A stretch of 64,000 nt of DNA from Antedon bifida (Eukaryota > Echinodermata > Crinoidea > Comatulida > Antedonidae): NCBI GenBank assembly GCA_963402885.1, contig OY727093.1, positions 1,240,001 to 1,304,000 of the forward strand. Direction: 5' to 3'. A program made the translations under genes and the position numbers. This document shows positions 6,976 through 55,245 of the stretch, piece by piece. The notes under the pieces were generated by a model that saw only the letters and a list, made by a program, of their open reading frames with translations, was not told where the DNA came from and did not search any database. Numbering within the stretch: the stretch's first letter is position 1; every line of letters starts with the position of its first letter.

Positions 6976-8237
6976 ATCCAAAGGGTCAAACAATGAGAGT
7001 AAAGAATCTTGCCTAAGAATATAGTCAATATGGCACAGACAGACTTTAACCCATACCTCTCACTTCATAGTTCGATCCCTAAACTGTTACGTCATATCAC
7101 TCTAATAAACATAGATAATAGCAAGCCACTAACCTGTTTGATGTCCAATAAGATGCTTCAAGTATGCTCAGTAAAATCCTTCAAATTCAACCAATTCAGA
7201 AATTTCAGGCTAACACTACACACACATTAATCCATGCAAAAGGAAAGGGATGGTAAACTAAACCTAATATGAAGGAAATACAAAAAGTAAAATGGTAAAT
7301 GAAACTGAGTTGCAATACCTTATCTTACCACATAAGTTTTATTGCAAGATTGGCTCTGAATTGATGAATCACACAATAAATTTTCAAAAACAAAAGGAGA
7401 AACCGTTTCTAAGAAAAGGCGAGTAGCCATTACAACTATCATGTCATCAGGATGTTTATAAATCAACAGATTGCTACAAAGCGCCTTTCTTTACAAAAAA
7501 CAAACTTCATCTGATCTACACTATCGGGTTGCTAGTGTTCATGTCGTTGAGGAAACTTTATATTATATCCAAAGGCATTTTCCACTTACTCGTACACATT
7601 TCCAAACACATGCTTATTTCCCTGCACAAATACCATGTTTATACACAAGAAAGGACATCAAAATATTTATGTAAAAATAAATGTTGGAAACGGTAGCCCA
7701 TTGGACCATGGCGGTTTAAAAATATTTAGGATGGACCTAAACATTTTACTGAAAGAGAGAGTATTTACCAGCGATAACACTGAAATAGAATAACATGAAA
7801 TAACAAACATGAACAAAATGTGAAAAGATGAAATGCTTAAATCTTCTAATCTAATTTTAATAGGACAAATTGTTAAAAGAGATAACAGATGAATTAATGT
7901 TGTTTGTATCTTGTATTAACTATTATTATTTTTATAAACATAAAGTTTGAAATGTTGTTACAATGTTTTATCCAAATTATATTCTACCTGTACACTATAT
8001 AAAGGAAACAGTTTTATCCCAGAAATGACAATGTTACCCCATATTATAGGGTTCAACGGCCGAGAATTTCCTACTTAAACGTCACTAACATCATCCGTTG
8101 TTAACTCAACTGCATAATGTATGAGGCGATAGGCAATATATCTGACTTACTACTATAAATATACAATGTAAATTGGATACAAATGTGCTCATTTTATGCT
8201 TAAAATGTATGCTGTTATACAGAATTTGGTTTTTATA

Positions 8238-25894: not shown

Positions 25895-26110
25895 TAATTC
25901 TATTCGACTCTTTTACCATTACGTTCGGCTCTTTTAGCATTCGGCGCATTTATATTCGGCCCATTTACCATTACGTTCGGCTCTTTCAGCATTCGGCGCA
26001 TTTCTATTTGGCCCATTTACCATTACGTTCGGCTCTTTCAGCATTCGGCTCTTTTTTATTCGGCCCATTTATGATTACGTTCGGCTCTTTCAGCATTCGG
26101 CTCTTTTTTA
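25895..26110. repeat. Minisatellite of about 52-bp units
   Basis: About four units containing ATTACGTTCGGCTCTTT, AGCATTCGGC and a GGCCCATTTA word. The plus-strand open frame that spans it is a translation of the repeat and not evidence of a gene. Confidence 0.85.
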
Positions 26111-26884
26111 TTATTATTTATTTATTATTTTAATAACTTGCGTTTGTCTAAGATAAATACTTATTTAGTGTCCCCGGAGAGTGCACCTATTCATGGAAAT
26201 ATGAAATTAAATATTAAGTCTCCAGTACTAGCCCACCATGGTTGTGGCAGAGCTAATAATAATGAAAATAGAGCCCAGAATTGCACTTATACTTATTACT
26301 ATACATAATCACCTATGATAATTATGATAATGTTAAAATTTCAACTATCCAGATGCGACTTCAACATTTTAGGTGGGGTTTTCTACTTTAAAACTCGACC
26401 TCGTATATACCTAAGGCCTAGCCCGGCGGCGGAATTGGTCTAAGCTTCGAAATTGGTCTAGAAATCGGCATCTTTCAAAATGTTCTATATTTGATCTTAT
26501 TTCACTCTCCATTAACCCCATACAAAAATCATCGGAGACAAACTATCTGTTTAAAACATGTTTATTCTGGGACGGTGCGGCCATACACACCAACTACCAT
26601 AAACGTTTATTCATAACATTTTACAATAGAATATCTTGTATGAATCGGACATTTTCGCTACCAATGTAGCAACATTAACAAAATCAAAATTTAACAGTGT
26701 GGCGTGTTGACCGCGAATGACTAACAATACCATCTTTCCCACTACACCTGTACAACCATTGCATAACAACGCACGGCATACCAAACCGTTTCGTACACCT
26801 GCGATGAAAATATAAATTCAATTTATTTTAAAATTGAGGGCGGAAAACATAAAATTTACGAGATCGAATACAGGTTGAAAAAAA

Positions 26885-27153
26885 AAAATTAAATAAAAAA
26901 AAAGATGTTAAATGTGCTCTCCCTGCCTCAGCACTAAGGCCCTGCCACAGCCTTTTGGGGTCGTTTCCAGCACATCACCAGATGCATTGATGTTGTCGCC
27001 TCATGATGTGTGGTGGAAAGGGGGACGTATAATCTGTGAACCCCAAACACAGTGGTCGCATACCTTTAACTCTATTCCACCGACCAGCGTGGGAATCGAA
27101 CCCACGACATACGTGTTGTCAACACGACGCTCAGGCGACTGAGCTAACTGATC
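26885..27153 (-). repeat. SINE-like unit with tRNA head (first of six)
   Basis: On the minus strand the tRNA-like head (27153-27081) runs into a GC-rich body of about 170 bp containing CCCCTTTCCACCACACATCA. It ends at two T-runs separated by ATTTAA, which would stop Pol III. Corresponding segments are present in the other five units. The layout is that of a tRNA-derived SINE, but no A-rich or microsatellite tail and no target-site duplication are visible. Confidence 0.5.
27081..27153 (-). tRNA. tRNA-Val(GAC)-like, array unit 1
   Basis: A 73-nt sequence folds as a cloverleaf. The acceptor stem GATCAGT/GCTGGTC has 7 pairs including two G-U, and the D stem is GCTC/GAGC. The anticodon stem TCGTG/CACGT has one terminal T-T mismatch. 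The anticodon loop is TTGACAA (anticodon GAC), and the T stem GTGGG/CCCAC closes loop TTCGATT. No CCA is encoded, as normal for eukaryotes. Against a working valine tRNA are the discriminator G instead of the usual A, the missing second G of the D-loop GG pair, and the setting inside a repeated unit with a SINE-like body. A gene, a pseudogene or a SINE head are all possible. Confidence 0.5.
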
Positions 27154-27250
27154 ATTTTGGTTTTAACAAGATTAATAGGATATTTATGACGTAGTGTTGA
27201 ATTACGTAATATACGTATAAATAGACTATTATCAGCTGTTCAGGCATGTA

Positions 27251-27348
27251 CTACTTTGTGGCTTAACGGGTAATGCTCAGGTTTGGGTGCTCTCAATTCT
27301 AGTAGATTGGGTTCGAACCTCTACGGATTTTTTTTTTTTTTTTTTTTT
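27251..27348 (+). ncRNA. tRNA-like Pol III unit with T-run, array unit 1
   Basis: TGGCTTAACGGGTAATGCTC is a good A box and GGTTCGAACCT a good B box, 32 bases apart. The sequence then reads CTACGGA and enters 21 consecutive T, a strong Pol III stop. The acceptor stem cannot be paired and the anticodon arm is poor, so it is not a normal tRNA. It lies about 100 bp from the tRNA-Val-like sequence and points the opposite way. Confidence 0.4.
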
Positions 27349-28825
27349 GAAAATAATTAATATTGTTTTTTCTTTTATTTTGAAAGAGAGATATTTTGAG
27401 GGTTGTAAATGTCAGGCCTAAACAAGTGGACCTTTTTTAAAATCAGAAACAAAGTTGCATGGCATTATTTTCCATCCATTCTTTTCGAGATTACTTTTGC
27501 AAACTAAAAGAGGGGAGCTGATAGGTTCCCGGCCGGAAAATGTTTTATTTACATGATTTGAACAATCTTCTAATGTAAAGATTAACAACATCAAAATTTA
27601 ACAGTGTGGCGTGTTGACCGCGAATGACTAACATACCATCTTGCCCATAATACACCTGCACAAACTCATTTGCATAACAACGCACGGCATACCAAACTGG
27701 TTAAAATAGAGCTGCAAGGTCTCCTGAAATGACATCTATTATTTTTTTTAACATGGTATAAGACTTTTCAGTACCCCACCATGCTTGGGGCTGAGCAAAG
27801 ATAATTTTGAAAAATAGAGCTGCATAGGTTCCCGCCCCAAAAAAATGGCACTTTACATGATTTTAAATTATATGAAACAAACTATTAATAAGATTCACCA
27901 GGGACAATAGAGCTTGTCATCGGAAAGTGCTCCTATAATTCATTAACATATGAAATTAAATATTAAGTCTCCAGTACTAGCCCACCATGGTTGGGGCAGA
28001 GCTAATAATGAAAATAGAGCCAAGAATTGCACTTATACTTATAACTATACATAATCACATATGATAATTATGATAATGTTAAAATTTCAACTATCCAGAT
28101 GCGACTTTAAAATTTTAGGTGGGGTTTTCTACTTAAAAACTCGACTTCGTATAAGGCCTACCCGGCGGCGGAATTAGTCTAAGCTTCGAAATTGGTCTAA
28201 AAATCGGCATCTTTGCCAATGTTCCATATTTGATCTTATTTTACTCTCCATTATCTCCATACAAGAACCATCGAAGACAAACTATCTGTTTAAAACATGT
28301 TTATTCTGGGGACGGTGCGGCCATACATAGCAACTACCATCAAAGTTTATTCATAACATTTTACAATAGAATATCTTGCATGAATCGGGCGTTTTCGCTA
28401 CCAATGTAGCAACATTGATTAACAAAATCAAAATTTAACAGTGTGGCGTGTTGACCGCGAATGACTAACAATAGCATCTTTCCCACTGCACCTGCACAAC
28501 CATTGCATAACATAGCACGGCATACCAAACCGTTTCGTACACCTGCGATGAAAATAATAAATTCAATTTCTTTTTAAATTGAGGGCGGCAAACATAAAAT
28601 TTACGAGATCGAATACAGGTTGAAAAAAAAAAATTAAATAAAAAAAAAGATGTTAAATGTGCTCTCCCTGCCTCAGCACTAAGGCCCTGCCACAGCCTTT
28701 TGGGGTCGTTCCCAGCACATCACCAGATGCATTGATGTTGTCGCCTCATGATGTGTGGTGGAAAGGGGGACGTATAATCTGTGAACCCCAAACACAGTGG
28801 TCGCATACCTTTAACTCTATTCCAC

Positions 28826-28898
28826 CGACCAGCGTGGGAATCGAACCCACGACATACGTGTTGTCAACACGACGCTCAGGCGACTGAGCTAACTGATC
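28826..28898 (-). tRNA. tRNA-Val(GAC)-like, array unit 2
   Basis: Same 73-nt cloverleaf as in unit 1, without substitutions in the stems or the TTGACAA loop. The same doubts about function apply. Confidence 0.5.
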
Positions 28899-28995
28899 AT
28901 TTTGGTTTTAACAAGATTTATAGGATATTTATGACGTAGTGTTGAATTACGTAATATACGTATAAATAGACTATTATCAGCTGTTCAGGCATGTA

Positions 28996-29095
28996 CTACT
29001 TTGTGGCTTAACGGGTAATGCTCAGGTTTGGGTGCTCTCAGTTCTAGTAGATTGGGTTCGAACCTCTACGGATTTTTTTTTTTTTTTTTTTTTTT
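28996..29095 (+). ncRNA. tRNA-like Pol III unit with T-run, array unit 2
   Basis: Same A and B boxes as unit 1, followed by 23 T. Confidence 0.4.
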
Positions 29096-30572
29096 GAAAA
29101 TAATTTTAAATATTGTTTTTTCTTTTATTTCGAAAGAGAGATATTTTGAGGGTTGTAAATGTCAGGCCTAAACAAGTGGACCTTTTTTAAAATCAGAAAC
29201 AAAGTTGCATGGCATTATTTTCCATCCATTCTTTTCGAGATTACTTTTGCAAACTAAAAGAGGGGAGCTGATAGGTTCCCGGCCGGAAAATGTTTTATTT
29301 ACATGATTTGAACAATCTTCTAATGTAAAGATTAACAACATCAAAATTTAACAGTGTGGCATGTTGATCGCGAATGACTAACATACCATCTTGCCCATAA
29401 TACACCTGCAAAAACTCATTTGCATAACAACGCACGGCATACCAAACTGGTTAAAATAGAGCTGCAAGGTCTCCTGAAATGACATCTATTATTTTTTTTA
29501 ACATGGTATAAGACTTTTCAGTACCCCACCATGCTTGGGGCTGAGCAAAGATAATTTTGAAAAATAGAGCTGCATAGGTTCCCGCCCCAAAAAAATGGCA
29601 CTTTACATGATTTTAAATTATATGAAACAAACTATTAATAAGATTCACCAGGGACAATAGAGCTTGTCATCGGAAAGTGCTCCTATAATTCATTAACATA
29701 TGAAATTAAATATTAAGTCTCTAGTACTAGCCCACCATGGTTGGGGCAGAGCTAATAATGAAAATAGAGCCAAGAATTGCACTTATACTTATAACTATAC
29801 ATAATCACATATGATAATTATGATAATGTTAAAATTTCAACTATCCAGATGCGACTTTAAAATTTTAGGTGGGGTTTTCTACTTAAAAACTCGACTTCGT
29901 ATAAGGCCTACCCGGCGGCGGAATTAGTCTAAGCTTCGAAATTGGTCTAAAAATCGGCATCTTTGCCAATGTTCCATATTTGATCTTATTTTACTCTCCA
30001 TTATCTCCATACAAGAACCATCGAAGACAAACTATCTGTTTAAAACATGTTTATTCTGGGGACGGTGCGGCCATACATAGCAACTACCATCAAAGTTTAT
30101 TCATAACATTTTACAATAGAATATCTTGCATGAATCGGACGTTTTCGCTACCAATGTAGCAACATTGATTAACAAAATCAAAATTTAACAGTGTGGCGTG
30201 TTGACCGCGAATGACTAACAATAGCATCTTTCCCACTGCACCTGCACAACCATTGCATAACATAGCACGGCATACCAAACCGTTTCGTACACCTGCGATG
30301 AATAATAAATTCAATTTCTTTTTAAATTGAGGGCGGCAAACATAAAATTTACGAGATCGAATACAGGTTGAAAAAAAAAATTAAATAAAAAAAAAGATGT
30401 TAAATGTGCTCTCCCTGCCTCAGCACTAAGGCCCTGCCACAGCCTTTTGGGGTCGTTCCCAGCACATCACCAGATGCATTGATGTTGTCGCCTCATGATG
30501 TGTGGTGGAAAGGGGGACGTATAATCTGTGAACCCCAAACACAGTGGTCGCATACCTTTAACTCTATTCCAC

Positions 30573-30645
30573 CGACCAGCGTGGGAATCGAACCCACGAC
30601 ATACGTGTTGTCAACACGACGCTCAGGCGACTGAGCTAACTGATC
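30573..30645 (-). tRNA. tRNA-Val(GAC)-like, array unit 3
   Basis: Identical cloverleaf to unit 1, anticodon GAC. Gene, pseudogene or SINE head. Confidence 0.5.
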
Positions 30646-30742
30646 ATTTTGGTTTTAACAAGATTAATAGGATATTTATGACGTAGTGTTGAATTACGTA
30701 ATATACGTATAAATAGACTATTATCAGCTGTTCAGGCATGTA

Positions 30743-30818
30743 CTACTTTGTGGCTTAACGGGTAATGCTCAGGTTTGGGTGCTCTCAGTTCTAGTAGATT
30801 GGGTTCGAACCTCTACGG

Positions 30819-30848
<30 letters not shown>
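30743..30848 (+). ncRNA. tRNA-like Pol III unit with T-run, array unit 3
   Basis: Same A and B boxes, followed by 28 T, the longest run in the array. Confidence 0.4.
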
Positions 30849-30852
<4 letters not shown>

Positions 30853-32322
30853 AATTAATATTGTTTTTTCTTTTATTTTGAAAGAGAGATATTTTGAGGG
30901 TTGTAAATGTCAGGCCTAAACAAGTGGACCTTTTTTAAAATCAGAAACAAAGTTGCATGGCATTATTTTCCATCCATTCTTTTCGAGATTACTTTTGCAA
31001 ACTAAAAGAGGGGAGCTGATAGGTTCCCGGCCGGAAAATGTTTTATTTACATGATTTGAACAATCTTCTAATGTAAAGATTAACAACATCAAAATTTAAC
31101 AGTGTGGCGTGTTGACCGCGAATGACTAACATACCATCTTGCCCATAATACACCTGCACAAACTCATTTGCATAACAACGCACAGCATACCAAACTGGTT
31201 AAAATAGAGCTGCAAGGTCTCCGGAAATGACATCTATTATTTTTTTAAACATGGTATAAGACTCTTCAGTACTCCACCATGCTTGGGGCTGAGCAAAGAT
31301 AATTTTGAAAAATAGAGCTGCATAGGTTCCCGCCCCAAAAAAATGGCACTTTACATGATTTTAAATTATATGAAACAAACTATTAATAAGATTCACCAGG
31401 GACAATAGAGCTTGTCATCGGAAAGTGCTCCTATAATTCATTAACATATGAAATTAAATATTAAGTCTCCAGTACTAGCCCACCATGGTTGGGGCAGAGC
31501 TAATAATGAAAATAGAGCCAAGAATTGCACTTATACTTATAACTATACATAATCACATATGATAATTATGATAATGTTAAAATTTCAACTATCCAGATGC
31601 GACTTTAAAATTTTAGGTGGGGTTTTCTACTTAAAAACTCGACTTCGTATAAGGCCTACCCGGCGGCGGAATTAGTCTAAGCTTCGAAATTGGTCTAAAA
31701 ATCGGCATCTTTGCCAATGTTCCATATTTGATCTTATTTTACTCTCCATTATCTCCATACAAGAACCATCGAAGACAAACTATCTGTTTAAAACATGTTT
31801 ATTCTGGGGACGGTGCGGCCATACATAGCAACTACCATCAAAGTTTATTCATAACATTTTACAATAGAATATCTTGCATGAATCGGACGTTTTCGCTACC
31901 AATGTAGCAACATTGATTAACAAAATCAAAATTTAACAGTGTGGCGTGTTGACCGCGAATGACTAACAATAGCATCTTTCCCACTGCACCTGCACAACCA
32001 TTGCATAACATAGCACGGCATACCAAACCGTTTCGTACACCTGCGATGAAAATAATAAATTCAATTTCTTTTTAAATTGAGGGCGGCAAACATAAAATTT
32101 ACGAGATCGAATACAGGTTGAAAAAAAAAATTAAATAAAAAAAAAGATGTTAAATGTGCTCTCCCTGCCTCAGCACTAAGGCCCTGCCACAGCCTTTTGG
32201 GGTCGTTCCCAGCACATCACCAGATGCATTGATGTTGTCGCCTCATGATGTGTGGTGGAAAGGGGGACGTATAATCTGTGAACCCCAAACACAGTGGTCG
32301 CATACCTTTAACTCTATTCCAC

Positions 32323-32395
32323 CGACCAGCGTGGGAATCGAACCCACGACATACGTGTTGTCAACACGACGCTCAGGCGACTGAGCTAACTGATC
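32323..32395 (-). tRNA. tRNA-Val(GAC)-like, array unit 4
   Basis: Identical cloverleaf to unit 1, anticodon GAC. Gene, pseudogene or SINE head. Confidence 0.5.
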
Positions 32396-32492
32396 ATTTT
32401 GGTTTTAACAAGATTTATAGGATATTTATGACGTAGTGTTGAATTACGTAATATACGTATAAATAGACTATTATCAGCTGTTCAGGCATGTA

Positions 32493-32593
32493 CTACTTTG
32501 TGGCTTAACGGGTAATGCTCAGGTTTGGGTGCTCTCAGTTCTAGTAGATTGGGTTCGAACCTCTACGGATTTTTTTTTTTTTTTTTTTTTTTT
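32493..32593 (+). ncRNA. tRNA-like Pol III unit with T-run, array unit 4
   Basis: Same A and B boxes, followed by 24 T. Confidence 0.4.
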
Positions 32594-34055
32594 GAAAATA
32601 ATTAATATTGTTTTTTCTTTTATTTCGAAAGAGAGATATTTTGAGGGTTGTAAATGTCAGGCCTAAACAAGTGGACCTTTTTTAAAATCAGAAACAAAGT
32701 TGCATGGCATTATTTTCCATCCATTCTTTTCGAGATTACTTTTGCAAACTAAAAGAGGGGAGCTGATAGGTTCCCGGCCGGAAAATGTTTTATTTACATG
32801 ATTTGAACAATCTTCTAATGTAAAGATTAACAACATCAAAATTTAACAGTGTGGCGTGTTGATCGCGAATGACTAACATACCATCTTGCCCATAATACAC
32901 CTGCACAAACTCATTTGCATAACAACGCACGGCATACCAAACTGGTTAAAATAGAGCTGCAAGGTCTCCTGAAATGACATCTATTATTTTTTTAAACATG
33001 GTATAAGACTTTTCAGTACCCCACCATGCTTGGGGCTGAGCAAAGATAATTTTGAAAAATAGAGCTGCATAGGTTCCCGCCCCAAGAAAATGGCACTTTA
33101 CATGATTTTAAATTATATGAAACAAACTATTAATAAGATTCACCAGGGACAATAGAGCTTGTCATCGGAAAGTGCTCCTATAATTCATTAACATATGAAA
33201 TTAAATATTAAGTCTCCAGTACTAGCCCACCATGGTTGGGGCAGAGCTAATAATGAAAATAGAGCCAAGAATTGCACTTATACTTATAACTATACATAAT
33301 CACATATGATAATTATGATAATGTTAAAATTTCAACTATCCAGATGCGACTTTAAAATTTTAGGTGGGGTTTTCTACTTAAAAACTCGACTTCGTATAAG
33401 GCCTACCCGGCGGCGGAATTAGTCTAAGCTTCGAAATTGGTCTAAAAATCGGCATCTTTGCCAATGTTCCATATTTGATCTTATTTTACTCTCCATTATC
33501 TCCATACAAGAACCATCGAAGACAAACTATCTGTTTAAAACATGTTTATTCTGGGGACGGTGCGGCCATACATAGCAACTACCATCAAAGTTTATTCATA
33601 ACATTTTACAATAGAATATCTTGCATGAATCGGACGTTTTCGCTACCAATGTAGCAACATTGATTAACAAAATCAAAATTTAACAGTGTGGCGTGTTGAC
33701 CGCGAATGACTAACAATAGCATCTTTCCCACTGCACCTGCATAACATAGCACGGCATACCAAACCGTTTCGTACACCTGCGATGAATAATAAATTCAATT
33801 TCTTTTTAAATTGAGGGCGGCAAACATAAAATTTACGAGATCGAATACAGGTTGAAAAAAAAATTAAATAAAAAAAAAGATGTTAAATGTGCTCTCCCTG
33901 CCTCAGCACTAAGGCCCTGCCACAGCCTTTTGGGGTCGTTCCCAGCACATCACCAGATGCATTGATGTTGTCGCCTCATGATGTGTGGTGGAAAGGGGGA
34001 CGTATAATCTGTGAACCCCAAACACAGTGGTCGCATACCTTTAACTCTATTCCAC

Positions 34056-34128
34056 CGACCAGCGTGGGAATCGAACCCACGACATACGTGTTGTCAACAC
34101 GACGCTCAGGCGACTGAGCTAACTGATC
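34056..34128 (-). tRNA. tRNA-Val(GAC)-like, array unit 5
   Basis: Identical cloverleaf to unit 1, anticodon GAC. Gene, pseudogene or SINE head. Confidence 0.5.
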
Positions 34129-34225
34129 ATTTTGGTTTTAACAAGATTAATAGGATATTTATGACGTAGTGTTGAATTACGTAATATACGTATAAATAGA
34201 CTATTATCAGCTGTTCAGGCATGTA

Positions 34226-34328
34226 CTACTTTGTGGCTTAACGGGTAATGCTCAGGTTTGGGTGCTCTCAGTTCTAGTAGATTGGGTTCGAACCTCTACG
34301 GAATTTTTTTTTTTTTTTTTTTTTTTTT
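34226..34328 (+). ncRNA. tRNA-like Pol III unit with T-run, array unit 5
   Basis: Same A and B boxes, followed by 25 T. Confidence 0.4.
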
Positions 34329-35803
34329 GAAAATAATTAATATTGTTTTTTCTTTTATTTTGAAAGAGAGATATTTTGAGGGTTGTAAATGTCAGGCCTA
34401 AACAAGTGGACCTTTTTTAAAATCAGAAACAAAGTTGCATGGCATTATTTTCCATCCATTCTTTTCGAGATTACTTTTGCAAACTAAAAGAGGGGAGCTG
34501 ATAGGTTCCCGGCCGGAAAATGTTTTATTTACATGATTTGAGCAATCTTCTAATGTAAAGATTAACAACATCAACATTTAACAGTGTGGCGTGTTGACCG
34601 CGAATGACTAACATACCATCTTGCCCATAATACACCTGTACAAACTCATTTGCATAACAACGCACGGCATACCAAACTGGTTAAAATAGAGCTGCAAGGT
34701 CTCCGGAAATGACATCTATTATTTTTTTAAACATGGTATAAGACTCTTCAGTACCCCACCATGCTTGGGGCTGAGCAAAGATAATTTTGAAAAATAGAGC
34801 TGCATAGGTTCCCGCCCCAAAAAAATGGCACTTTACATGATTTTAAATTATATGAAACAAACTATTAATAAGATTCACCAGGGACAATAGAGCTTGTCAT
34901 CGGAAAGTGCTCCTATAATTCATTAACATATGAAATTAAATATTAAGTCTCCAGTACTAGCCCACCATGGTTGGGGCAGAGCTAATAATGAAAATAGAGC
35001 CAAGAATTGCACTTATACTTATAACTATACATAATCACATATGATAATTATGATAATGTTAAAATTTCAGCTATCCAGATGCGACTTTAAAATTTTAGGT
35101 GGGGTTTTCTACTTAAAAACTCGACTTCGTATAAGGCCTACCCGGCGGCGGAATTAGTCTAAGCTTCGAAATTGGTCTAAAAATCGGCATCTTTGCCAAT
35201 GTTCCATATTTGATCTTATTTTACTCTCCATTATCTCCATACAAGAACCATCGAAGACAAACTATCTGTTTAAAACATGTTTATTCTGGGGACGGTGCGG
35301 CCATACATAGCAACTACCATCAAAGTTTATTCATAACATTTTACAATAGAATATCTTGCATGAATCGGACGTTTTCGCTACCAATGTAACAACATTGATA
35401 ACAAAATCAAAATTTAACAGTGTGGCGTGTTGACCGCGAATGACTAACAATAGCATCTTTCCCACTGCACCTGCACAACCATTGCATAACATAGCACGGC
35501 ATACCAAACCGTTTCGTACACCTGCGATGAAAATAATAAATTAAATTTCTTTTTAAATTGAGGGCGGCAAACATAAAATTTACGAGATCGAATACAGGTT
35601 GAAAAAAAAAATTAAATACAAAAAAAGATGTTAAATGTGCTCTCCCTGCCTCAGCACTAAGGCCCTGCCACAGCCTTTTGGGGTCGTTCCCAGCACATCA
35701 CCAGATGCATTGATGTTGTCGCCTCATGATGTGTGGTGGAAAGGGGGACGTATAATCTGTGAACCCCAAACACAGTGGTCGCATACCTTTAACTCTATTC
35801 CAC

Positions 35804-35876
35804 CGACCAGCGTGGGAATCGAACCCACGACATACGTGTTGTCAACACGACGCTCAGGCGACTGAGCTAACTGATC
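35804..35876 (-). tRNA. tRNA-Val(GAC)-like, array unit 6
   Basis: Identical cloverleaf to unit 1 even though the unit's sequence just beyond it has started to diverge. Anticodon GAC. Confidence 0.5.
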
Positions 35877-35973
35877 ATTTTGGTTTTAACATGGTTAATA
35901 AGATATTTATGACGTAGTGATGAATTACGTAATACACGTATAAATAGACTATTATCAGCTGTTCAGTCATGTA

Positions 35974-36063
35974 CTACTTTGTGGCCTAACGGGTAATGCT
36001 CAGGTTTAGGTTCTCTCAGCTCTAGTAGATTGGGTTCGAACCTCTACGAATATTTTTTTTTTT
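35974..36063 (+). ncRNA. tRNA-like Pol III unit, array unit 6 (diverged)
   Basis: A box changed at one base (GGCCTAAC), B box intact, T-run shortened to 11 and followed by A-rich sequence (AAATAAA repeats). Confidence 0.35.
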
Positions 36064-36463
36064 AAATAAAAAAAAAATAAATAAAAAATAAATAAATAAA
36101 TAAAATAGTGAATATTGTTTTTCTTTTATTTTAAAAGAGAGATATTTTGAGGGTTGTAAATGTCAGGACCTTTTTTAAAATCAGAAACAAAGTTGCATGG
36201 CATTATTTTCCATTAAATAGACTACCACAAATCCTCGAAAAGAAGCTCATGTGCTCCTTCATTTTTGGTACTCTTGGGTGGGCTTCTTTTCCACATGAAG
36301 TTCTTTTCGAGATTACTTTTGCAAACTAAAAGAGGGGAGCTGATAGGTTCTCATCCGGAAAATGTTTTATTTACATGATTTGAACAATCTTCTAATGTAA
36401 AAATTAACAACATCAACATTTTAACTTTTTTACTCTGCTAAAGGAAACACAAAGGATATTAGG

Positions 36464-36545
36464 AGGACTGAGGACGATCAAAGCATATTGATCGAAACGT
36501 CGAGAAACTCAACAGTTCTTTTCAGAACTAATATACATGGTGTAC
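36464..36545 (+). repeat. Penelope-like GAAACGTC motif with perfect hairpin
   Basis: CTGAGGA is followed by the hairpin CGATCAA-AGCATA-TTGATCG (7 perfect pairs) and then AAACGTCGAGAAACTC. Relatives are at 18130 and 18745. The order CTGANGA, hairpin, GAAAC resembles a hammerhead ribozyme core, but the G before AAA is needed for the hairpin closure, so the match is imperfect. Confidence 0.45.
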
Positions 36546-36739
36546 CGCAAACTTTATATCAACAAAGGATTTTTTTTCTCTTAAATTTATTAAAATGTAG
36601 TGACCTTATTTCTATTTTATACCACTGTGCTCCCTGGTGGCAAATTGAGTTCAATTGAGCACAGTGTATGAACATACAAAATATATTAAAATTCTGTGAC
36701 TGAACCAGTTACCGTAGTACTATTTCTATTTCTGAAGTA

Positions 36740-36933
36740 AATAAAGGCATAAATGGCGCTCCGTAGAAAAGTAGAGAATGCTCGAATGCTCCATCATCGT
36801 CAGAATGACGCTCTGAATATACCTCGCAGTATTAGTACAACAGCATCAGAAAGATCCACTACCAAAGTGTGGTGGCGCTTAGCAGCTTAGTGAACCGAAA
36901 CGGAGCCATTATTATTATCTTGTTGGACTGGTG
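36740..36933 (+). promoter_or_regulatory. Candidate promoter and 5' UTR exon of the LRR gene
   Basis: This block has more CpG and GC than its surroundings and ends in GGACTGGTG|GTAAGCT, a good splice donor (GT at 36934). With the acceptor TTACAG at 37462-37467 this gives a non-coding first exon and an intron of 534 bp directly before the coding exon. There is no TATA box. Confidence 0.45.
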
Positions 36934-51500: not shown

Positions 51501-54500
51501 TTATCATGAAGAATCCTAATGGTAGCTATTTCCCTGAATATGTTTGCGGCTATCTGTATACAAATACACCTGCCAAGTCATGCATGACGGCCGCTTTTTA
51601 AGTGATTACATTATTACACATTATATTATACATTATTTTGCCCATTTTGAACTAACAATAACAATCATAGTTCTACATGTTATTAATTAATTTGAGCACA
51701 AGTTAGCCTAGGCCTATGATTATGTGTATTTTTTGGTCGATAGTGTAGCACCGCAATGCCTATTCGGTAGAAAACTAAACATAGTTGATTTATTTCATGA
51801 TAAGGCACTACATACATTTTTTTTCTCATTCATTGGCCATTGAAAAAAGTTGGGAGGTACTGTATAAATGATGAACTTACCTGATCCTGAACCAGGTAGA
51901 GTTGGATCAATGATATCAATGAGGCTAGGACCTCCATCTAAGAACTGAGTAGTATCAGGGTCAGTGATCAACATGTTAGGCATATTCTGTTGACAATGCC
52001 GAGCTATCAAGATAATCATTATCAGGATACATATGAAACATATAGGCACAGCAATGAGAGCTGCAAGTTCCAGTGTATCAAACTTGTTCTTGCTGCTGTC
52101 CTTTAGATCTGTCAAGAAAAGCATGAATATTGCAATAAACCAAAGATGATGTTGGCTGTTAAGTTATGAGATTAATAATAAACAAAGGTAATACAGTAAG
52201 TAACTAGAAGGGCACTTGGAGAGCTCAAACCACCACCAATGCTACATATCAAAAAAGACGTATAAGGTTTTACAATGAAAATCTCTATGGTCAAACTGTC
52301 CATTGCTCTGGTCAGCTTGATATTTGACCTAAGCATATGAAAATCCAATCACATGTTGTTCAATATAGCTATGAATCCATCCTTTAAAATCTTATGAAAA
52401 TTGGGAAATAACTTTTGAGTAATCCTGCTAACAAAATGGCAGAGGAAAATATGCAATTATTACTATAATGCCTCCCAGATTCCATTTAAAAAAATTAATA
52501 AAATCAACATTGTAAATTACTAATGTTTGATTCAATACCTTTACAGGTCTCTTCACATAACTCTAATGTTGTAAAGCTATTCTCATTGCCTCCACATCCA
52601 GAATACTCAAACTTTACACAACGGTTAGCTTGTGCCATGTACGCATACCTCACTAATCCTAATCCTTTGCAAGTACCAGTGTGTAGTGGTTGGTTACATA
52701 TAACTACAAGAAAAACAAATACATTCCTGCATACAAAAGATACAACACATTTTTATGTATTAGGGCTAGAGATTTTGTTTACAACTAACAAACCATTAGG
52801 GACCATGCCAAAATTATTCTACTGCAGTTTACTGATACTATTTTGTTTACAGTAATATTTAACCTGTTTATGGAATTATTTACAAAACATACACCATTTA
52901 TTGCAGAGAATACATCATAAACTACATTTCAGTGTCCATGCCTGAAAAAATGTGTAAAAATAGTTAACTGACAGAACGATTTTGACACAGTTTCCTTAAA
53001 TCTAAGTAGCAACCCTTCTAGCAAGTTACAAGTCTTGTTTATTTATCTATATATATCACTGGTATATTTTAATCAATTATAAACATACAAATACATTCTT
53101 AACATTTAGCAACAGGAAAAAAGTAACATTTTCAGCTGAATTGCACTTTATGATAACAGAAAAGGATTACAATTAAAAACAAAACACATTTTATATTAGA
53201 TGCACAAATTTAAAATGTGGAAAATAATAATTCCTGGTTGATCAGATAGTAAGTCCCATTATTGATACTAACCACTTGGTATAGGTGTGTATGGCAACAT
53301 TATAATGTCCAAGTTCTCATTACAGTAGTCAGCATCATTACAACACTTCTTCCCATACATGTTTGAGGGAGCAGACTCCACACAACTGATATGCTTTGCA
53401 GAATCGTTTTTCCCTATTGTCATGAGATCTTCTTCAAGAATACAAAATAATAAGGTTTCCAATGTTCTGCCTTTTCTCTGTATAACCTTTGCACATTGTC
53501 CTTTCTTTCCAGCATCACAATAATTGGAATCACATAATTTCACATTTGGATCATCACAAGAACACAAAATACCTGAAAAATGGTGAATAAAAACAAAAAA
53601 CATTTTTAAAACCAGCAGGTCAAATGAATCGTTAACTTTGTATACAAATACTGGGAATATGCAATAAAAGCAATAATCAGAAATCAGTGGTGCCGGCTAG
53701 TAATAGTATGCCTAGACGTCTTAAATTCCAACGCGTGTTCTCTAAATAGTCTACTTCCATTAAATATTTAAAAATATCATTACATAATATTAGCAATTAA
53801 TGGGTCCTCCTAAATACCAAGACCTACCAAGACCTACCAAGACCTGTCAATTTAAAGTGTTAATTTAACGAAATATGATATATATAGACTTCTAATAGCA
53901 TTTCCAACAATAAAACCTCAATTTTAGCGCTATATAGACACCAAAAATGTTAAATAATCGACAAGCTTCGCGTTCGCGAAACGAACTGAGTTGATGCATA
54001 CATTGCGTCACAAATGTCCGTATTGCGTCAACTAGTATGACCAACCAAGACCTACCAAGACCTGTCAATTTAAAGTGTTATTTTAACGAAATATAATATA
54101 TATAGACTTCTAATAGCTTTTCAAACAATAAAACCTCAATTGTAGCGCGATATAGACACCAAAAATGTTAAATGTAGGCCTACGACCCAGTAGGCCTATG
54201 ACAGGAGAACTGCGTCGAGTGTCAGTGAGCCATACTAGTTGACGCAATACGGACATTTGTGACGCAATGTATGCATCAACAACTCAGTTCATTTCACGAA
54301 GCTTGTCGATTATTTAACATTTTCGTAAAATTTTTGGTGTCTATATCGCGCTGAAATTGTTGGAAATGCTATTAGAAGTCTATATATATCATATTTCGTT
54401 AAAATAACACTTTAAATTGACAGGTCTTGGTAGGTCTTGGTTGGTCATACTAGTTGACGCAATACGGACATTTGTGACGCAATGTATGCATCAACTCAGT

Positions 54501-55245
54501 TCGTTTCGCGAACGCGAAGCTTGTCGATTATTTAACATTTTCGTAACATTTTTGGTGTCTATATCGCGCTGAAATTGTTGGAAATGCTATTAGAAGTCTA
54601 TATATATCATATTTCGTTAAAATAACACTTTAAATTGACAGGTCTTGGTAGGTCTTGGTTGGTCATACTAGTTGACGCAATACGGACATTTGTGACGCAA
54701 TGTATGCATCAACTCAGTTCGTTTCGCGAACGCGAAGCTTGTCGATTATTTAACATTTTTGGTGTCTATATCGCGCTAAAATTAAGGTTTTATTGTTGGA
54801 AATGCTATTAGAAGTCTATATATATCATATTTCGTTAAATTAACACTTTAAATTGACAGGTCTTGGTAGTTCTTGGTAGGTCTTGGTAGGTCTTGGTATT
54901 TAGGAGGACCCCAATTAATAGCCTAAATAAAGTAAAGACTATACCTAGTTATAGAACAGGCCTAGGCCTTAATCTACCTTATTATGTCCACTATACTAGG
55001 CATGTAGCATGGGCCTCTATGTAGAGCAAAGCTAGGCTAAAGCGTAGACTTTCTAATAAGCAAGGCTAGATCCATCCAGCAGGCTAGGTAGGCTGGCGAC
55101 ATTTAATACGTTGTTGTGGTGTACGAAATCCTATTCCACTTTCCTAACCACTTTCTTTTTGTTCAAACTTACCAGTGACACAATGTGGAACAAAACACAC
55201 TACAAAAACAGTTAAAGCTAAATATCTACAACTTATTAGTTCCAT
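45469..55245 (-). CDS. TGFBR1: TGF-beta/activin type I receptor (ALK4/5/7 class), 8 coding exons
   Basis: Eight minus-strand exons join in frame to 512 codons plus stop (human ALK4/5 have about 505). Order: signal peptide (1-24); cysteine-rich ligand-binding ectodomain ending in the CCNDADYCN box; one membrane helix (about 139-161); GS segment (about 193-203); Ser/Thr kinase (about 215-500). Visible kinase features: glycine loop GKGRYGEV (221-228), Lys241 in [12 protein letters not shown] with Asp342, DLG (360-362), and [12 protein letters not shown] near the end. The L45 loop (ADNKDSGIS) resembles receptors that activate Smad2/3 rather than BMP Smads. The known mechanism is that ligand-assembled type II receptor phosphorylates the GS segment, and this kinase then phosphorylates R-Smads. 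Oddities: the GS segment is [10 protein letters not shown] instead of the usual TTSGSGSGLP, and SPE replaces APE. Which vertebrate paralogue is closest cannot be settled, so the symbol is provisional. Confidence 0.93.
45757..45887 (-). CDS. TGFBR1: Receptor coding exon 7: kinase C-lobe
   Basis: The acceptor is a run of 13 T followed by CAAG; donor TTGAG|GTATGT. Encodes [37 protein letters not shown] ends only about 41 bp upstream of this acceptor. Confidence 0.93.
45929..46771 (+). mobile_element. 5'-truncated LINE (L2/CR1/jockey-like) in a receptor intron
   Basis: An open frame of 187 codons is followed by a 3' UTR of about 245 bp and an AAATC microsatellite tail (46757-46775). ATCATCAT on both sides (45921-45928, 46772-46779) is a candidate 8-bp target duplication, but the flanks are simple sequence. 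It lies antisense to the receptor gene, in the intron between exons 6 and 7. The 5' part, with endonuclease and most of the reverse transcriptase, is missing. Confidence 0.85.
45948..46511 (+). pseudogene. Reverse transcriptase C-terminal region of the LINE
   Basis: The frame is open for 187 codons and shows the C-terminal conserved words of non-LTR reverse transcriptases: [42 protein letters not shown], and [12 protein letters not shown] close to the end. The palm catalytic residues lie upstream and are absent, so the product could not be active. The lack of stops and frameshifts suggests a fairly recent insertion. The apparent start is only the point where the truncated frame opens. Confidence 0.85.
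47181..47462 (-). CDS. TGFBR1: Receptor coding exon 6: catalytic loop and activation segment
   Basis: Acceptor AACTATAG, donor GGAG|GTAAAC. Encodes [37 protein letters not shown] and [12 protein letters not shown]. The activation-segment end is SPE rather than APE. Confidence 0.94.
47925..48092 (-). CDS. TGFBR1: Receptor coding exon 5: L45 loop to alpha-E
   Basis: Acceptor TCTTTCAG, donor CAAG|GTATGA. Encodes the C-terminal side of the L45 loop, [15 protein letters not shown] and [10 protein letters not shown]. Confidence 0.93.
48940..48990. repeat. Perfect 22-bp palindrome with inverted flanks
   Basis: ATAGAGATATTAATATCTCTAT at 48955-48976 is its own reverse complement, and TTACAGTA/TACTGTAA words flank it. 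It is in the receptor intron between exons 4 and 5. Confidence 0.7.
49249..49479 (-). CDS. TGFBR1: Receptor coding exon 4: kinase N-lobe
   Basis: Acceptor CATCTACAG, donor AAAG|GTATTG. Encodes [11 protein letters not shown], the glycine loop, VAVK, and [20 protein letters not shown], among the most conserved stretches of type I receptors. Confidence 0.94.
49772..49861. repeat. Perfect tandem duplication, 2 x 45 bp
   Basis: The unit begins ACACTGATCAATGTACCAAC and ends TTACAGTATTTG; the second copy (49817-49861) is identical. A recent duplication in the receptor intron between exons 3 and 4. Confidence 0.9.
50265..50350 (+). repeat. Dispersed repeat shared with 61410-61480
   Basis: ACATAAACAAAGTCTTATTA and GGGAGTGGAG correspond to ACATAAACAAAGTCTTCTAA and TGGAATGGAG at 61428-61465. 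Both copies continue with TTGTCAT and GAGAAAA/TAGAAAA. Family unknown. Confidence 0.5.
51305..51346. repeat. 42-bp near-perfect palindrome
   Basis: Two 21-base arms (TAGGCTTAGCCCATGGAGC... and its inverse) match at 20 positions with no spacer, predicting a strong hairpin or cruciform in the receptor intron between exons 3 and 4. Confidence 0.85.
51881..52108 (-). CDS. TGFBR1: Receptor coding exon 3: membrane helix and GS segment
   Basis: Acceptor CTTGACAG, donor ATCAG|GTAAGTTC. Encodes the stalk, the hydrophobic span [20 protein letters not shown], a basic stop-transfer RHC, and the start of the GS segment (DPTLPGSGS). The upstream membrane-proximal part has several acidic residues. Confidence 0.92.
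52799..52995. mobile_element. Harbinger-like MITE, copy in a receptor intron
   Basis: Starts GGGACCATGCCAAAATTATT and ends TTTGACACAGTTTCC, with TTA on both sides (52796-52798, 52996-52998). More decayed than the copy at 40649-40860. It lies in the intron between exons 2 and 3. Confidence 0.7.
53273..53572 (-). CDS. TGFBR1: Receptor coding exon 2: ligand-binding ectodomain
   Basis: Acceptor TTTTTCAG, donor AGTG|GTTAGT (a less common GTTAGT). Encodes about 100 residues with the cysteine pattern of the activin-receptor three-finger fold, starting CSCDDP and ending with CCNDADYCN. Confidence 0.92.
53802..54911. mobile_element. 1.1-kb multiply inverted DNA transposon, 8-bp target duplication
   Basis: The termini are exact inverted repeats starting GGGTCCTCCTAAATACCAAG and ending in its reverse complement. 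CAATTAAT is duplicated on both sides (53794-53801 and 54912-54919). The interior is five copies of a unit of about 220 bp: two in forward orientation (53.82-54.05 and 54.05-54.23 kb, the second shortened) and three inverted (54.23-54.44, 54.44-54.67 and 54.67-54.90 kb). Units carry TTTCGCGAACGCGAAGC and GACGCAATACGGACATTTGT and are joined by AGACCTACCA/GGTCTTGGTA repeats. No coding capacity. The 8-bp duplication fits hAT, P, Merlin or MULE types; family undecided. It sits in the first intron of the receptor gene. Confidence 0.88.
55173..55245 (-). CDS. TGFBR1: Receptor coding exon 1: signal peptide
   Basis: ATG at 55245-55243. The 24 codons start MELISC and contain the hydrophobic core [11 protein letters not shown], then PHCVT. 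Donor G|GTAAGTT, phase 1. Confidence 0.88.

Follow-up and report, generated by a model that had tools for sequence, protein, structure and literature searches.

Expansion of tandem repeats inside DNA transposons and retention of an RNA polymerase III (Pol III) unit by non-autonomous elements appear, from the comparison made here, to be known separately, the former in Tetris and Galileo and the latter in Cassandra and Helenus. Tetris, an apparently non-autonomous foldback transposon of Drosophila virilis, has internal tandem repeats that become satellite-like arrays (PMC4079207). Galileo, a member of the P superfamily, has long terminal inverted repeats (TIRs), internal tandem repeats in some copies, target-site duplications (TSDs) mostly of 7 bp and a highly variable structure (PMC4168063). 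Cassandra, Helenus and Ajax, the TRIMp3 elements, are non-autonomous long terminal repeat (LTR) elements keeping a Pol III promoter derived from a small RNA gene; Cassandra and a zebrafish Helenus form tandem arrays (PMC7215508, PMC10886601). The rodent 4.5SH and 4.5SI genes, of 7SL or tRNA origin, encode small nuclear RNAs transcribed by Pol III and have A and B boxes and a TATA-like box at -31/-24 (PMC10137851), while Dada DNA transposons insert into small RNA genes (PMC3706591, PMC8869645). Here we describe an array of 1.75-kb repeats found in a stretch of 64,000 nucleotides of the crinoid Antedon bifida (C1:1240001-1304000, hereafter the window) and compared with the genome, 315.6 Mb on 27 contigs. 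Rather than being a free-standing satellite, the array forms the inside of a foldback-like DNA transposon with no known transposase. Each repeat carries a leftward unit with a tRNA-like head and a rightward unit with A and B boxes; as read from the sequence, the element most likely carries this divergent Pol III pair as a conserved module and expands it into local arrays.

Structure of the array and of the element

Self-BLAST and unit alignment place the array at 26169..36421 of the window, so that it is slightly longer than the 26201..36420 given by an earlier, sequence-only reading of the same DNA. It consists of 5.86 direct tandem copies of a unit of about 1748 bp (range 1735-1750 bp), starting at 26169, 27915, 29665, 31413, 33160 and 34895. 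That reading had counted six units, the middle four almost identical, and units 2-5 do show pairwise identities of 99.2-99.7% (gaps not counted). Unit 1, with about 97% identity to this group, departs from it chiefly in the left half, and in unit 6 the divergence lies to the right of the tRNA-like sequence; a homogenised core with older edges is the usual picture. The repeat also contains an internal duplication of about 118 bp (monomer 503-621 and 1414-1531, about 86-90% alike).

Twenty stretches were fetched genome-wide around matches to the rightward unit; in some of them an end is cut off, the copy is rearranged, or neither end is seen. The junction found at the left of the array in the window, 42 bp at 26127..26168 (+ strand), is present in 11 of the 20, being identical in 10 of these and 91% in L025. 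On the other side the entire right arm adjoins the array in 7 of the 20 stretches, and part of it in L018. In the window this arm, defined by comparison with the fetched loci, covers 36422..36825 (+ strand) and ends with the terminal inverted repeat, the tip being at 36825. The tip position is the same in six of the seven loci, L013 ending about 11 bp short. Other copies have the tip and the subterminal repeats of the arm (about 95-100 bp each) in inverted orientation at their left ends; for the tip this is seen in 8 copies, and tips inverted relative to each other are present at both ends of 8 copies. Throughout the genome, 401 sites match a 22-mer of the tip with at most 2 mismatches, against 0 for the reversed pattern used as control; 28 inward-facing pairs, 1.7-14.3 kb apart, are found among the 100 tip matches listed, and the listed termini are spread over eleven contigs.

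Eight copies could be read at both tips. Perfect 7-bp TSDs flank five of them (L014, TCATCAG; L020, CGTGTGA; L024, GAATTTT; L025, GAATAAA; L029, TCGTTTG, with a deletion in the tip of the last), 6 of 7 bp match at L010, and no TSD is seen at L026 and L030. A second tip was not found at L017, L019, L021, L023 and C13:20506-20509 kb. Long inverted arms, seen in some copies, are not shown for every one: L030 has inverted arms of about 1.8 kb with 95% identity, and in L022 two arrays face each other. Because of the shared arms, the inverted tips and the 7-bp TSDs, the array is assigned to the interior of a foldback-like TIR DNA transposon, a point that the term satellite, used by the sequence-only reading, does not capture. 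An LTR element, formed by a 1433-bp 'LTR' and a spacer, had been considered on account of the recurrent right edge of the arrays, and was abandoned in view of the inverted termini and the 7-bp TSDs.

Three exact tips in the same orientation were noticed 19.3 kb apart at C8:22607616, 22626903 and 22646189, and may reflect a large tandem duplication with an end of the element inside it. The truncated element of the window is bordered on its left, at the position expected for the left arm, by a TTCGGC-rich minisatellite with a 52-bp period (25898-26112).

The two units of the repeat

ARAGORN reports six tRNA-Val(GAC) sequences in the window, all on the minus strand and one per repeat, and no other tRNA there. 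The six heads are identical at 75 of 75 bases, each is scored 50.8 bits by the Rfam tRNA model (cut-off 29 bits), and their minimum-energy fold is a cloverleaf (z -2.79 versus shuffles), in agreement with the left-pointing, tRNA-Val(GAC)-like cloverleaf noted earlier in each unit. The leftward unit is more than a tRNA: the head is followed by a conserved body of about 170 nt and by a T-run. Located by ARAGORN and sequence, with the support of the alignment for copy 1 and of Rfam for copy 3, the six copies occupy the minus strand at 26902..27154 (head 27080-27154, T-run to the left), 28647..28899 (head 28825-28899), 30394..30646 (head 30572-30646), 32144..32396 (head 32322-32396), 33877..34129 (head 34055-34129) and 35625..35877 (head 35803-35877).

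The rightward unit had been placed about 100 bp away, and its A box starts 105 bp beyond the head in all six repeats. The A box is TGGCTTAACGG in five of them and differs by one base in the sixth; the B box, GGTTCGAACCT, follows downstream and precedes a T-run. Identified by sequence on the plus strand, these units correspond to 27247..27348 (A box at 27259), 28992..29095, 30739..30848 (A box 30751, B box 30802), 32489..32593, 34222..34328 and 35970..36063, the last being diverged and having a shorter T-run; all six starts are estimates.

A promoter region is shared by the two units, and in unit 3 it lies at 30672..30716, with the left TATA-like box at 30672-30680 and TATAAATAG, serving the right unit, at 30708-30716. 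The distance from TATA-like box to A box is 43 nt for the right unit and 42 nt for the left one. If transcription started some 12-15 nt upstream of the A box, this spacing would put the TATA near -30, which compares with -31/-24 for the rodent 4.5SH and 4.5SI genes (PMC10137851). T-runs of at least 4 follow all 75 right units analyzed (median 12), and T-runs of at least 7 follow all 63 left units (median 10), one of which has an internal TTTT; a stretch of only 4 T means little in a genome this rich in AT. At L009, L012, L013, L014, L016 and L017 the right unit and its promoter are tandemly repeated alone, with periods of about 140-330 bp.

Copy number was compared with the rest of the genome by searching short patterns with at most 3 mismatches. 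Matches numbered 353 for a 40-mer of the right unit, 438 for a 37-mer of the head, 539 for a 39-mer of the body (all 100 listed being exact), 483 for a 29-mer joining the promoter region to the head and 80 for a 45-mer of the right-type terminus, whereas the reversed patterns gave 0 in each case; counts for patterns of different lengths are not strictly comparable. Places were listed best first, about 100 per pattern, except for the right-type terminus, for which all 80 were. With 353 and 438 matches against none for the reversed patterns, recurrence of the two units is not due to chance.

Twelve single-looking copies, located on C1, C7 and C8, were chosen among the 100 exact body matches listed first; the selection is not exhaustive. 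Eleven lie within the same element, mostly in a diverged subfamily, and L042 is a fragment of ambiguous context; among the 12 none is clearly outside the element. The suggestion of an amplified nested SINE (short interspersed element) pair is therefore retained in part only. The leftward unit does have the anatomy of a SINE, that is a head with A and B boxes, a body and a 3' tail; independent insertions with their own TSDs apart from the element were not found among these twelve, and matches to the promoter-head junction are about as numerous as those to the head (483 and 438, for patterns of different length).

Divergence within and between loci

Sequence divergence was measured over monomer 505-1149 on 66 unit copies from 34 loci, seven overlapping loci having been dropped. 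It averages 1.3% within a locus versus 7.1% between loci, and the nearest copy is in the same locus for 32 of the 48 copies of multi-copy loci, ties counted. The arrays are thus locally homogenised, as the first reading had it.

When one unit is taken from each of the 34 loci (561 pairs), the leftward unit diverges by 2.9% and the adjacent 505-717 block by 12.9%; the former value is below the latter in 542 pairs, tied in 3 and above it in 16. Mean divergence over 21 loci is 2.1% for the body, 3.0% for the head and 4-15% for the other blocks. Similar results were obtained by comparing 11 single-looking copies with the window: monomer 622-717 differs by 32% and 503-621 by 17.6%, the body by 3.4%, the head by 2.9% and the sequence between the units by 9%.

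A profile in bins of 20 bp was established on 10 of these 11 copies, L037 being excluded as less diverged. The mismatch fraction is 0.10-0.46 over monomer 503-702 and 0.55 in 703-722, drops to 0.05 in the following bin, and stays at 0.00-0.14 from there to the end of the head; it is 0.00 at the right TATA block. The step falls inside the leftward T-run. With a conserved block that stops at the terminator, the most economical interpretation is selection acting on the transcription unit. Over 33 loci, divergence is 2.6% for the right TATA block, 1.1% for the left B box and 4.7% for the right B box.

Comparison with described elements

Tetris shares with the Antedon element the expansion of tandem repeats inside a foldback-type DNA transposon. 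Its repeats are about 220 bp long and lie in the TIRs, and Pol III units are not mentioned in the portion of the paper considered, whereas here the repeat is 1.75 kb and contains two units (PMC4079207). Galileo resembles the element in its long TIRs, tandem repeats, 7-bp TSDs and variable structure, a likeness that leaves aside the TIR tip itself. Its site motif GTATTAC is, however, absent from the five TSDs reported above; it belongs to the P superfamily, whereas no P-type transposase domain was found near the 80 right-type termini of our element; and the part of the source examined describes no Pol III units, while two are carried here (PMC4168063).

The TRIMp3 elements differ from the present one, with its TIRs, 7-bp TSDs and divergent pair, in being LTR retroelements whose LTR contains the small-RNA sequence (PMC7215508, PMC10886601). 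TRIMp3 are defined by LTRs and a TSD of 4-6 bp (PMC10886601), and with inverted termini and a 7-bp TSD the element falls outside the class; the phrase 'DNA transposon' occurs 0 times in the Helenus/Ajax text (PMC10886601). The 4.5SH and 4.5SI genes resemble the leftward unit in having A and B boxes and a TATA-like box; neither a transposon nor a divergent pair is described for them in the part of the article seen, whereas the array element has both (PMC10137851).

No DNA transposon carrying Pol III units is described in the titles and abstract openings of the papers listed by the literature searches, a scope outside which subscription papers and Repbase lie. TSDs of Dada transposons are 6-7 bp long. 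Small RNA genes are the insertion targets of Dada (PMC3706591, PMC8869645), whereas the element described here contains the units itself, and its five TSDs are all different.

Search for a transposase

P-type (58 genome matches) and MULE (33) domains were searched for: none was found within 54 kb of the 80 right-type termini, other tips and other superfamilies not being searched. Two of the 58 P-type places were fetched, and shared with the element one 27-bp match at chance level and no other common TIR. L029, with both tips and a 7-bp TSD, was tried as an autonomous copy and rejected, as 4 of its 31 open reading frames (ORFs) of at least 60 aa were scanned and gave a reverse transcriptase and a destabilase exon, and no transposase. 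Between its tips (75-8643 of C9:10197600-10206300) L029 encloses this exon of a destabilase, an invertebrate-type lysozyme, at 7733-7966, and the reverse transcriptase frame; capture of host sequence by the transposon is possible. L043 (C10:13982000-13987000) is one of 15 of the 58 P-type places that have the same score and an open frame of 638-642 aa with a P-element-type transposase domain; this looks like a recently active P-type family, and its TIR is not shared with the array element.

Interpretation and alternative explanations

We regard it as probable that the array lies inside a non-autonomous foldback-like TIR transposon, in which the Pol III units are transcribed and the leftward one is kept by selection. 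A transposase supplied in trans would move the element by its TIRs, and the 1.75-kb repeats would grow and shrink inside inserted copies, by unequal exchange or replication slippage, each new repeat bringing a divergent Pol III-type promoter region. Pol III would then transcribe both units, producing RNAs of about 255 nt (left) and 95 nt (right), and selection, acting either on Pol III activity or on the RNA of the leftward unit, would keep the leftward unit intact while the spacers drift. A bolder formulation, offered tentatively, is that of a DNA transposon encoding its own Pol III RNAs from a divergent pair with a shared TATA-containing promoter, the RNA of about 255 nt being held at about 3% divergence by selection where the flanks reach 32%.

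Several observations weigh against this interpretation. In the window copy the match to the element stops at about 26127 and other sequence follows; left arm, left tip and left TIR are missing and, because of the missing TIR, the TSD of this copy is unreadable. The nearest P-type and MULE domains listed are 54.8 and 97 kb away from the 80 right-type termini. The bin with 0.55 mismatch at 703-722 is of low complexity, with 30% gaps, and the preceding ones vary from 0.10 to 0.46; two further loci, L009 and L015, reach 15-20% divergence in parts of the body and 0.30 at its end. The right unit, differing by 16% in the 11 single-looking copies, is not strongly conserved overall. Over the 33 loci, three boxes vary no less than the sequence around them, with divergences of 6.3% (left A box), 7.5% (left TATA-like box) and 11.8% (right A box, partly at free positions). 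For the divergent Pol III-like pair of the sequence-only reading, conservation holds for the leftward unit, both B boxes and the right TATA block, with T-runs after both units, and does not hold for these three boxes. The leftward RNA folds no better than shuffles (z -0.32), and RNAalifold finds two-sided changes in 0 of 72 pairs. Finally, the uniformity of the leftward unit could also come from gene conversion between its many copies.

On this last point the main rival is built: the units would be silent passengers, a tRNA-derived SINE that an ancestral element picked up together with a second tRNA-like fragment, and would look conserved only through gene conversion among hundreds of copies. 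This explanation, which takes the transposon itself as common ground, is on balance unlikely, although it draws on the strong homogenisation of units within arrays, the SINE-like anatomy of the leftward unit, the lack of support for an RNA structure, and the ordinary divergence of the A boxes and the left TATA-like box. Conversion should affect the spacer in the same copies as well, yet this diverges by 12.9% versus 2.9%, and it should not respect a boundary located in a terminator.

A structured leftward RNA was rejected as a candidate, both shuffle and covariation tests being negative. A hairpin, GGU-AUGCG-ACC / GGC-AUGCG-GCC, seems to co-vary by eye in one alignment; RNAalifold paired the sequence otherwise, and the hairpin is not counted as evidence. 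The right unit alone also folds no better than shuffles and matches no Rfam family.

It is distinctly improbable that the leftward unit is a host multicopy small-RNA gene, comparable to those of the rodent 4.5S RNAs, spread by the transposon and kept by selection on the host. Its conserved head, body and terminator and its TATA-like box are what 4.5SH and 4.5SI genes would suggest (PMC10137851). Against a host gene, the single-looking copies lie in the element in 11 cases of 12, with one ambiguous and none clearly outside; the patterns for the promoter-head junction and for the head occur at similar frequencies; and only the tRNA family is matched in Rfam, at E up to 1, over window 30000-31412.

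A chromatin boundary or insulator array acting through TFIIIC sites, another possibility raised by the first reading, is very unlikely. A- and B-box sites are dense, and right-type termini are enriched toward chromosome ends, 38 of the 80 being within 2.5 Mb of an end versus 14 expected (maximum of 20,000 random draws, 30); but dispersal of the transposon explains these positions without any role in the host.

A functional cluster of tRNA-Val(GAC) genes is hardly credible in spite of the six ARAGORN calls and the cloverleaf fold of the head. The anticodon is not constant: subfamilies have GAC or AAC, or a deletion that disrupts it, with the body retained; it follows that decoding is not the conserved property. 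Eukaryotes are not known to have a cytosolic GAC tRNA. G18 and G19 have a role in the tRNA D loop, and the D loop of the head has no GG. A terminator is lacking directly after the head, and the score of 50.8 bits is below the 63.5-74.2 reached by the genome's 63 top-scoring tRNAs, which were selected for high scores. Four high-scoring tRNA genes were fetched, three tRNA-Lys(TTT) and one tRNA-Cys. A 13-mer of the head, GTTAGCTCAGTCG, is common to two of the tRNA-Lys genes and matches the third at 12 of 13 bases; it is followed by GTAGAGC in the tRNA-Lys genes versus CCTGAGC in the head, where the D-loop GG is absent. From these four genes, a tRNA-Lys-like origin of the head is likely. One of the tRNA-Lys(TTT) genes belongs to a tandem tRNA cluster at C13:4536474-4604213, many members of which are spaced by 173 bp.

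An assembly artefact by false duplication, suggested by the near-identity of the middle units, can be set aside with little hesitation, as units differ by substitutions, the edges are diverged, and the organisation recurs at other loci with different flanks and copy numbers.

Other features of the window

A stretch of the right arm, which looked similar to a Penelope hammerhead, was rejected as a hammerhead ribozyme: with E values up to 1, Rfam reports no hammerhead for either the window or L014, and the few other matches are far below their cut-offs. A second foldback-like structure lies at 53774-54942, with 218-bp direct repeats and inverted partners of up to 98% identity; self-BLAST of the window shows no match between it and the array. 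ORFs of the window include a leucine-rich repeat (LRR) protein, a protein-kinase exon and an ankyrin-SOCS-box protein. Nothing similar to the window sequence was found in phage records, and a search of paper texts for four sequence fragments returned only one unrelated tRNA-fragment paper.

Implications

Small-RNA promoters in mobile elements have been described for SINEs and for LTR elements such as TRIMp3, and a cut-and-paste element with a divergent pair would add the case of a DNA transposon. It would directly link a transposon to a satellite and to a Pol III-transcribed array. Genomes hosting such elements may lead tRNA finders to report many false tRNA-Val genes. If the transposon does encode its own Pol III RNAs, the leftward RNA, or the open chromatin resulting from transcription, would serve the element or its host, and the arrays would raise the dose; the hundreds of natural copies in A. 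bifida would be available for testing what the conserved RNA or promoter is for.

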